22,408 nt of DNA, taken from positions 1 to 22,408 of the IMG/VR virus record IMGVR_UViG_3300035034_000360. One strand, written 5' to 3'. Shown here in pieces: positions 4,354 to 4,915 of this stretch. Position numbers and translations under genes: made by a program. Source of the stretch: a virus. The notes under the pieces were generated by a model. That model was not told the origin of the DNA and ran no database searches. It was given only the letters and a program-made list of their open reading frames with translations. The first letter of the stretch is position 1. The number at the start of each line of letters is the position of its first letter.

Positions 4354-4567
4354 CGACAAGCAACTTACTCGAAAAGCCACAATACGTGTGTACATCAACC
4401 TCTTGCTCACACTGGCTATGATTGTGTTCACGATATACACTATCGTTGAAGGCGCTGACCCACGAACTATGTGGCTATGGCTATGGGTGATAGTGTTGTG
4501 GTTCTTGGGAGTACCGACAGAAGAAGAAACTGAAGCAGTAAAAAATTATTATGAAAGGAAAAAATAA
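4343..4567 (+). CDS. Two-helix membrane protein, 74 aa
   Basis: ATG 4343 overlaps the previous gene and follows an AAAGG ribosome binding site at about 4331. Residues 16-35 (VYINLLLTLAMIVFTIYTIV) and 42-57 (TMWLWLWVIVLWFLGV) are hydrophobic and should span the membrane, joined by a short polar turn (EGADPR). The N-terminus is basic and the C-terminus charged. A holin has this size and topology, but there is no endolysin nearby and the position among early genes argues against lysis. Superinfection exclusion or another envelope role is equally possible. Confidence 0.72.
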   Translation: MASSDKQLTRKATIRVYINLLLTLAMIVFTIYTIVEGADPRTMWLWLWVIVLWFLGVPTEEETEAVKNYYERKK

Positions 4568-4776
4568 TGACTGAACAAGAAAAGAAGCCAAGAGGCTGGA
4601 ACTTTAGAAAAGGTAGCAAAGACGCTCCAACCGCACAGGAGCTTGCAGGGCGAGGCAAAATTGGTGGACGTGTTGGTGGACTCGCTAAAGTGCCGAAGGG
4701 CTTTGCTGACGTTGACGTGCAGGCTAGTGCGCAACTATCACGCAAGTTAGCTGAAGCCGAACGAGCCAAGAAATAG
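4567..4776 (+). CDS. Small glycine/lysine-rich protein, KGG-like
   Basis: This 69-residue protein starts in a TAATG overlap with the membrane protein. It is basic and contains GRGKIGGRVGGLAKVPKGFA at residues 28-47, resembling the glycine-repeat phage proteins also seen at 1739. The C-terminal third is an alanine-rich helix (VQASAQLSRKLAEAERAKK). Function is unknown; nucleic-acid binding is possible from the composition. Its TAG stop is only two bases before the tmRNA-like RNA at 4779, so that RNA is probably released from the same transcript by processing. Confidence 0.7.
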   Translation: MTEQEKKPRGWNFRKGSKDAPTAQELAGRGKIGGRVGGLAKVPKGFADVDVQASAQLSRKLAEAERAKK

Positions 4777-4778
4777 TT

Positions 4779-4881
4779 GGGGCTGAAATAGTATCGACTT
4801 CTAGTGAAGTGGGCAAACGGCTCAAAGACAACCACGAAGTAGCTAGAAAGGACGTGGGCGCAATACCCACCAGCTCCACCA
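4779..4881 (+). ncRNA. Compact tmRNA-like RNA with encoded CCA (103 nt)
   Basis: Both ends match tmRNA. The 5' end GGGGCTG (4779-4785) pairs over 7 positions with CAGCTCC (4871-4877), including a G3.U70 wobble (4781/4875) and discriminator A73, the identity elements for alanyl-tRNA synthetase; CCA is encoded (4879-4881). After the 5' strand comes a D-loop-like stretch ending ATCGAC (4793-4798), as in tmRNA. GGAC (4850-4853) directly precedes the T stem GTGGG/CCCAC (4854-4858/4866-4870). CTTCTAG (4798-4804) pairs with CTAGAA(A)G (4843-4850), standing for helix H2. The remaining loop could encode GCA AAC GGC TCA AAG ACA ACC ACG AAG TAG (4813-4842). Oddities: only 103 nt against the usual 300-400, no room for four pseudoknots, and a T-loop (CGCAATA) lacking the canonical TT. 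It could be a minimal tmRNA, a tRNA-like decoy or a decayed gene. Confidence 0.72.
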
Positions 4882-4886
4882 AAAGC

Positions 4887-4915
4887 TTGACACATAAAGC
4901 ACGTTGTGCTATATT
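4887..4915 (+). promoter_or_regulatory. Sigma70 promoter P2, near-duplicate of P1
   Basis: TTGACA at 4887-4892, a 17-base spacer and TATATT at 4910-4915 preceded by TGC (extended -10). The spacer contains CATAAAGCACGT, shared with P1 at 2664, and AGCAC-GTT-GTGCT (4898-4910), a 5+5 inverted repeat overlapping the -10. It starts six bases after the tmRNA-like RNA and would drive the gene at 4960 onwards. Confidence 0.85.

Follow-up and report, generated by a model that had tools for sequence, protein, structure and literature searches.

What would a phage gain from an RNA that has both ends of a tmRNA and seems to lack the message between them? The window, a linear virus record of 22.4 kb, carries portal, protease, capsid, tail tube, and tape-measure genes, and at positions 4779 to 4881 it contains an element that the original prediction took to be a reduced, phage-supplied tmRNA with alanine identity. 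Judging from its sequence and that of its relatives, we find that the element is very likely a tagless tmRNA-type RNA.

RESULTS

The element has the ends and helices of a tmRNA

Every sequence feature named in the original prediction is present where it was placed. The element and its surroundings are organized as follows.

4567-4776, + strand: small ORF of 69 aa with no family match, its stop codon 2 nt before the RNA
4779-4881, + strand: putative tagless mini-tmRNA, tRNA-like domain closed by P2 (R1, 51.2 bits; RF00023 end to end, 37.4 bits)
4779-4785, + strand: acceptor stem 5' strand GGGGCTG, with G3 of G3.U70 (column pairs covary in the family)
4786-4798, + strand: D-loop-like segment AAATAGTATCGAC, without an anticodon arm, AG replacing GG
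4798-4804, + strand: P2 5' strand CTTCTAG (P2 covaries in the family)
4805-4842, + strand: P2 loop of 38 nt, where the tag-coding and pseudoknot region would be
4809-4812/4832-4835, + strand: possible hairpin GTGG/CCAC in the P2 loop, from folding
4810-4814/4820-4824, + strand: possible hairpin TGGGC/GCTCA in the P2 loop, by inspection
4813-4842, + strand: suggested resume codon GCA with the ANGSKTTTK tag and stop, found in the sequence but unsupported
4843-4850, + strand: P2 3' strand CTAGAAAG, one A bulged
4850-4853, + strand: GGAC preceding the T arm
4854-4870, + strand: T arm GTGGG-CGCAATA-CCCAC, G55 accompanying the AG D loop
4871-4877, + strand: acceptor stem 3' strand CAGCTCC, with U70 (G3.U70 in 99/99 aligned members)
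4878-4881, + strand: A73 and encoded CCA (ACCA, found in 56/126 family members)
4887-4915, + strand: sigma-70-like promoter TTGACA-17-TATATT (11/12), just after the RNA, probably serving the next genes

Standard one-piece tmRNA (ssrA, RF00023) shares with the element the G3.U70 acceptor, A73, a D-like loop ending in ..UCGAC, P2, GGAC, and the T arm, and it too has no anticodon arm. The acceptor stem here has 7 bp including G3.U70, the T arm has 5 bp, and the D-like loop ends in ..ATCGAC at 4798. P2, of 7 bp plus one bulged A, takes the place of the anticodon arm and joins the tRNA-like domain to the rest of the molecule. The D and anticodon arms with an alanine anticodon that define tRNA-Ala are absent from the element. 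Compared to standard tmRNA, however, the element is about 250 nt shorter and has no supported resume codon, tag, or set of four standard pseudoknots; only 51 nt separate CGAC from GGAC, and PK1 to PK4 are absent from that interior. The folding energy of the element is ordinary (z -0.88).

Covariance model R1, built from 20 family members with the window excluded, gave a single match in the 22.4-kb window, at 4779-4878 with 51.2 bits (E ~6e-10). On control sequences, ordinary tRNAs scored at most 29.6 bits and normal tmRNA 3' ends at most 38 bits. The family ranges from 46.6 to 83.3 bits, and the window element lies near the bottom, mostly, in our reading, due to its longer loop and the AG/G55 elbow described below. 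RF00023 is a model for sequences of about 350 nt, and its positions 1-374 aligned exactly on 4779-4881 in a search of the whole record, at 37.4 bits, below the gathering cut-off of 47 bits. No ordinary tRNA scored above 20.6 bits in that search, and 45 of 49 representative related records exceeded the cut-off. We rely on bits since the RF00023 E-values are optimistic, archaeal controls also matching at E up to 1. A permissive Rfam scan of the short stretch matched only parts of the element, and RF04321, the two-piece model, matched the window only in part; the gene order is standard, not permuted. Of the searches that the original prediction proposed as a check, RF00023 gave the end-to-end alignment below its cut-off, ARAGORN called neither a tRNA nor a tmRNA in the element, and Rfam at its gathering cut-offs returned no match. 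ARAGORN does not report tagless tmRNA, and such RNAs are therefore usually missed by annotation.

The proposed tag is at chance level

The loop was proposed to hold a resume codon and a mini-tag, and the frame from GCA to TAG at 4813-4842 does encode ANGSKTTTK with a stop before the 3' strand of P2. Nevertheless, shuffling the interior of the window element produced a frame of at least nine codons in 16% of cases (a chance probability of 0.16). Across the family, frames from GCN to a stop of at least four codons occur in 13 of the 25 members whose interiors are at least 45 nt, against 12.5 (sd 2.2) in dinucleotide shuffles. Interiors shorter than 45 nt, too short for a real tag, characterize 101 of 126 elements, and 4 of these 101 have such a frame. 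Neither in the window nor in the family does a resume codon with a tag frame rise above chance.

Related elements occur in many viral records

A first family pattern, with tmRNA-like ends and no tag region, was scanned on viral contigs of one collection and matched 16 stretches. Thirteen of these, representing ten distinct sequences, have fully paired acceptor and T stems. The 13 that were kept are neither two-piece nor normal tmRNAs; two two-piece tmRNAs (L024 and L027) and one normal tmRNA (L033) were taken out. Longer, relaxed, and shorter versions of the pattern enlarged the family to at least 124 unique viral elements, which with the window and one bacterial genome give a set of 126, 59 to 136 nt long (median 78), in more than 160 viral records. 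No viral record searched had a tmRNA match other than its mini element or elements. A tRNA lies within 1.5 kb of 25 of the 126. One record (L264) holds two separate mini-tmRNAs (G050:C1 42520-42602 and 109671-109753).

Other searches contributed little. An earlier narrow pattern returned two near-identical stretches (L002 and L003) that were chance matches in protein-coding DNA, and nearly all matches in a genome scan were normal tmRNA 3' ends that happened to have GGGG upstream, with an acceptor of 5-6 of 7. Searches with the terminase and with the 69-aa upstream protein found remote relatives only, in which the RNA was not found beside either gene, and no DNA match to the window was present in the phages or plasmids searched.

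Ten unique elements from two phage groups (L162, L163, L171, L172, L177, and L254; L188, L193, L216, and L244) lie inside the 3' end of an ORF that we read as portal-like, and both groups encode a C-terminal DGGSTPP(A/D)S tail. These may be RNA genes that overlap the ORF or coding look-alikes, and their P2 pairs seem by eye to be kept. They are the least certain members, and without them about 116 unique elements remain, the window included. Members of 73-136 nt (e.g., L170, L158, L034, and L285) have a recurrent inner motif, UAAARCC-loop-GG or, in larger members, AAAGCCCA, and by inspection one pseudoknot is possible in several of the larger members (L156 and L158-L161). In the 78-nt class, by inspection, the inner motif did not fit a kink-turn consistently across members.

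The stems covary and the tRNA elbow is kept

In an R1 alignment of 99 members, which was fitted to the structure and hence is biased toward it, standard pairs fill 97.6% of pair cells against 68.2% after shuffling, and the covariation score, 0.725 for the alignment as made, falls to 0.140 with shuffling and to 0.06 to 0.10 with sliding. Covariation is strong in the acceptor, P2, and T stems; many bases of the tRNA-like domain were fixed in the patterns, and their conservation is thus partly ascertained. Two kinds of evidence agree with the fitted alignment. Acceptor pairs 5:68 and 6:67, which the patterns left free, show all four Watson-Crick types, and true P2 halves have a mean pairing score of 6.7 against 3.3 for mismatched halves. 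The original prediction had named as a check whether other phages carry the element with compensatory changes, and the answer was strongly positive.

The T loop CGCAATA had been considered a noncanonical oddity with an effect of its own. Across the family, D-loop and T-loop types combine as 97 GG/U55, 9 AG/G55, and 3 GG/G55, and the last three also read AG one base upstream. The window element is one of the AG/G55 cases, and the association of AG with G55 and of GG with U55 is strong (Fisher P 2.7e-6, for members that are not fully independent). Thus, the CGCAATA loop is explained by a tertiary contact in which G55 goes with the AG of the D loop, as expected of a kept tRNA elbow, and the view of the loop as an oddity that acts by itself is corrected.

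Alanine identity is strictly kept

G3.U70 is present in 99 of 99 aligned members, but the patterns demanded it, so that its conservation among pattern matches is ascertained; two of the 99, from Streptomyces phages, were found by BLAST instead. A G3-C70 version of the first pattern had 0 viral matches, compared to 16 for G3.U70. Moreover, in three phages found by BLAST (LuckySocke, BRock, and Alone3), pair 4-69 changed from G-C to U-A while G3.U70 was kept. A phage-supplied, reduced tmRNA with the alanine identity of G3.U70 and A73 is therefore supported. So strict a G3.U70 argues for charging and for action on the ribosome rather than mere sequestration.

Neighbors, carriers, and possible partners

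The upstream ORF ends so close to the RNA that RNase P or a similar activity would have to generate a mature 5' end. Six cultured Streptomyces phages (LuckySocke, GiJojo, pSt2308, Shaeky, BRock, and Alone3) carry the element, where it sits within tRNA clusters. No feature is annotated at it in LuckySocke, pSt2308, Shaeky, BRock, or Alone3, and in GiJojo, found by BLAST only, a hypothetical protein is annotated across it. Elsewhere, type II hammerhead ribozyme arrays lie between small phage genes (L029 9828-12349 and L032 517-2359), and one gap of the arrays holds a mini-tmRNA, as if the processing signals were interchangeable.

A cellular family is disfavored. Under strict filters that may lose weak matches, the mini form was found in 1 of 287 Patescibacteria and 0 of 296 Actinomycetota. 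The one patescibacterial carrier, a metagenome-assembled Uhrbacteria genome, has a mini-tmRNA (L057 1414-1524; G014:C17:97414-97524) upstream of a holB-like gene and a normal 392-nt tmRNA on another contig.

Two phage-borne partners were considered and set aside. SmpB was found in none of the 14 records of one search and none of the 48 of another, many of them fragments, and its absence from the carrier records means that a host partner would be needed. Release factors with an RF-1 domain were found in 3 of 46 viral contigs and in one cultured phage that is not a confirmed carrier, and as RF-1/ArfB-like proteins are absent from most records, they are not a general partner. In Tunturiibacter phage Tunturi_4 (L314 618-965), a gene for an RF-1-domain release factor lies just upstream of a tmRNA 3' end.

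DISCUSSION

Tagless tmRNA has precedents. Mycobacteriophage DS6A is the one named phage with a "TLD only" tmRNA (tmRNA Website; PMC4131195, PMC11915505), and the other precedents are organellar forms and a few bacterial ones. A 2025 database holds 97,179 tmRNA sequences, phages contributing 79; 9 forms are tabulated as "standard, no CDS," and DS6A is the one phage form of this kind that the text mentions (PMC11915505). Like DS6A, the window element is a phage-borne tRNA-like domain in standard gene order with no supported tag frame. DS6A, compared here by description only, is a single sequence with little beyond that domain, whereas the window element combines a P2 loop of 38 nt with an AG/G55 elbow and is one of a set spanning more than 160 viral records. 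Mitochondrial and plastid tag-less tmRNAs (RF02544) also have a tRNA-like domain without a tag frame, and those of Mallomonadaceae are about 65 bp (PMC11915505); the mitochondrial forms are usually permuted, unlike the element. Two-piece phage tmRNAs (Pelagibacter phage HTVC008M; OM43 phage Melnitz, PMC9004378) are phage borne too, and that of HTVC008M has a GCAATA-type T loop in common with the element, but they are permuted, unreduced, and carry a complete tag. Since tagless phage tmRNA has one published precedent, the window element is no new category and is instead a variant, with a long P2 loop and an AG/G55 elbow, within a broad family. A broad phage family of this kind was not reported in the literature searched, which covered few subscription papers and preprints, so that its breadth appears to be unreported there and priority is not certain.

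How might such an RNA act? The transcript is predicted, from sequence and covariation, to fold as a tmRNA-type tRNA-like domain with G3.U70 and A73 and no anticodon arm. Enzymes of tRNA processing would release it from the operon transcript, host AlaRS would load it with alanine, and with host SmpB and EF-Tu it would then enter ribosomes stalled without a stop codon. The mini-RNA would take over the nascent chain or at least tie up SmpB. Lacking a message, it would add no degradation tag, so that host tmRNA would be outcompeted and stalled chains would escape SsrA tagging, after which the ribosome would be either freed by drop-off or left blocked. Such charging, binding of SmpB and EF-Tu, and entry into stalled ribosomes would together put the RNA in competition with host tmRNA. 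That a charged tagless tmRNA competes for SmpB and stalled ribosomes is the reading toward which we lean, if only somewhat, and we give about an even chance to the wider proposal that many unrelated phages use an alanine-charged tagless tmRNA to divert stalled ribosomes from the tag-and-destroy pathway. The suggestion that the element acts as a decoy drawing AlaRS, SmpB, or EF-Tu likewise stands as a candidate, with the tag-less tmRNAs of organelles as a parallel. A DS6A-like RNA with the tRNA-like domain only strongly inhibits endogenous tmRNA in E. coli, according to the passages of PMC4131195 and PMC11915505 that cite Mao et al. 2009. Titration of SmpB is reported to be effective even with uncharged RNA (PMC4131195), and thus titration would not explain the strict alanine identity, which action on the ribosome would explain. 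Counting against competition are the RNA-processing-type positions of some elements (the hammerhead arrays of L029 and L032, and the tRNA clusters) and the inner motifs of larger members (such as AAAGCCCA), which it leaves unexplained.

The RNA might instead help. Charged and working with host SmpB, it could free stalled ribosomes without tagging, as proposed for mitochondrial tmRNA without a tag frame: the chain would be moved onto the mini-RNA and dropped off or hydrolyzed, sparing unfinished phage proteins and keeping ribosomes in use. Strict alanine identity suits a ribosomal role of this kind as well, tag-less tmRNA in mitochondria is found together with imported SmpB (PMC11915505), and a few large carrier phages encode the RF-1-domain release factors noted above (3/46 viral contigs). 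The E. coli result, in the passages that relate it, nevertheless describes the DS6A-type RNA as an inhibitor, and RF-1-domain proteins are missing from most records, leaving no general partner. We consider tagless rescue rather unlikely.

A role as punctuation is less probable still. Here the fold would be a site for RNase P and tRNA 3' maturation that cuts the phage operon transcript, and charging would be irrelevant. The window RNA does begin 2 nt past a stop codon within an operon, and the L029 and L032 elements occupy intergenic slots of arrays that are otherwise split by hammerhead ribozymes. Cutting, however, has no need of G3.U70 and A73, of a missing anticodon arm, or of tag loss, as ordinary tRNAs would suffice, and G3.U70 never gave way. 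Translation of the frame at 4813-4842, by which a minimal but complete tmRNA would add ANGSKTTTK, is very improbable: the frame exists and stops before the 3' strand of P2, but frames are as common as expected by chance (13/25 against 12.5), 101 of 126 interiors are under 45 nt, and the window's own frame has a chance probability of 0.16. ssrA is a common integration site, and phages can contain ssrA 3' ends, one of which lies next to an integrase in a Moorella phage. Descent from a host ssrA gene, as its decayed remnant or its attachment site, is nevertheless the least credible source of the element and seems largely refuted by covariation, as both ends and three helices are intact and covary across records, no integrase was recognized in the window proteins scanned (which cover the phage in part), and the cultured Streptomyces phages hold the element inside tRNA clusters.

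More than a hundred similar RNAs in many other phages, nearly all of them without annotation, suggest that the host's tag-and-destroy ribosome rescue is a target of phage interference. If their action matches that of the DS6A-like RNA in E. coli, it would be a common phage strategy to block or divert trans-translation, and why phages meddle in ribosome rescue could be tested in culturable phages with an RNA of about 78 nt. The family also shows how little of a tmRNA suffices to keep contacts with AlaRS, SmpB, and the ribosome under selection, and it suggests dropping the tag requirement from tmRNA finders. We note that ARAGORN and Rfam both detect two-piece tmRNAs in Pelagibacter phage HTVC008M, Xanthomonas phage Rb1, Caulobacter phage CcrPW, and Pseudomonas phage PaMx31 (L017-L020), at sites where no tmRNA feature is annotated.
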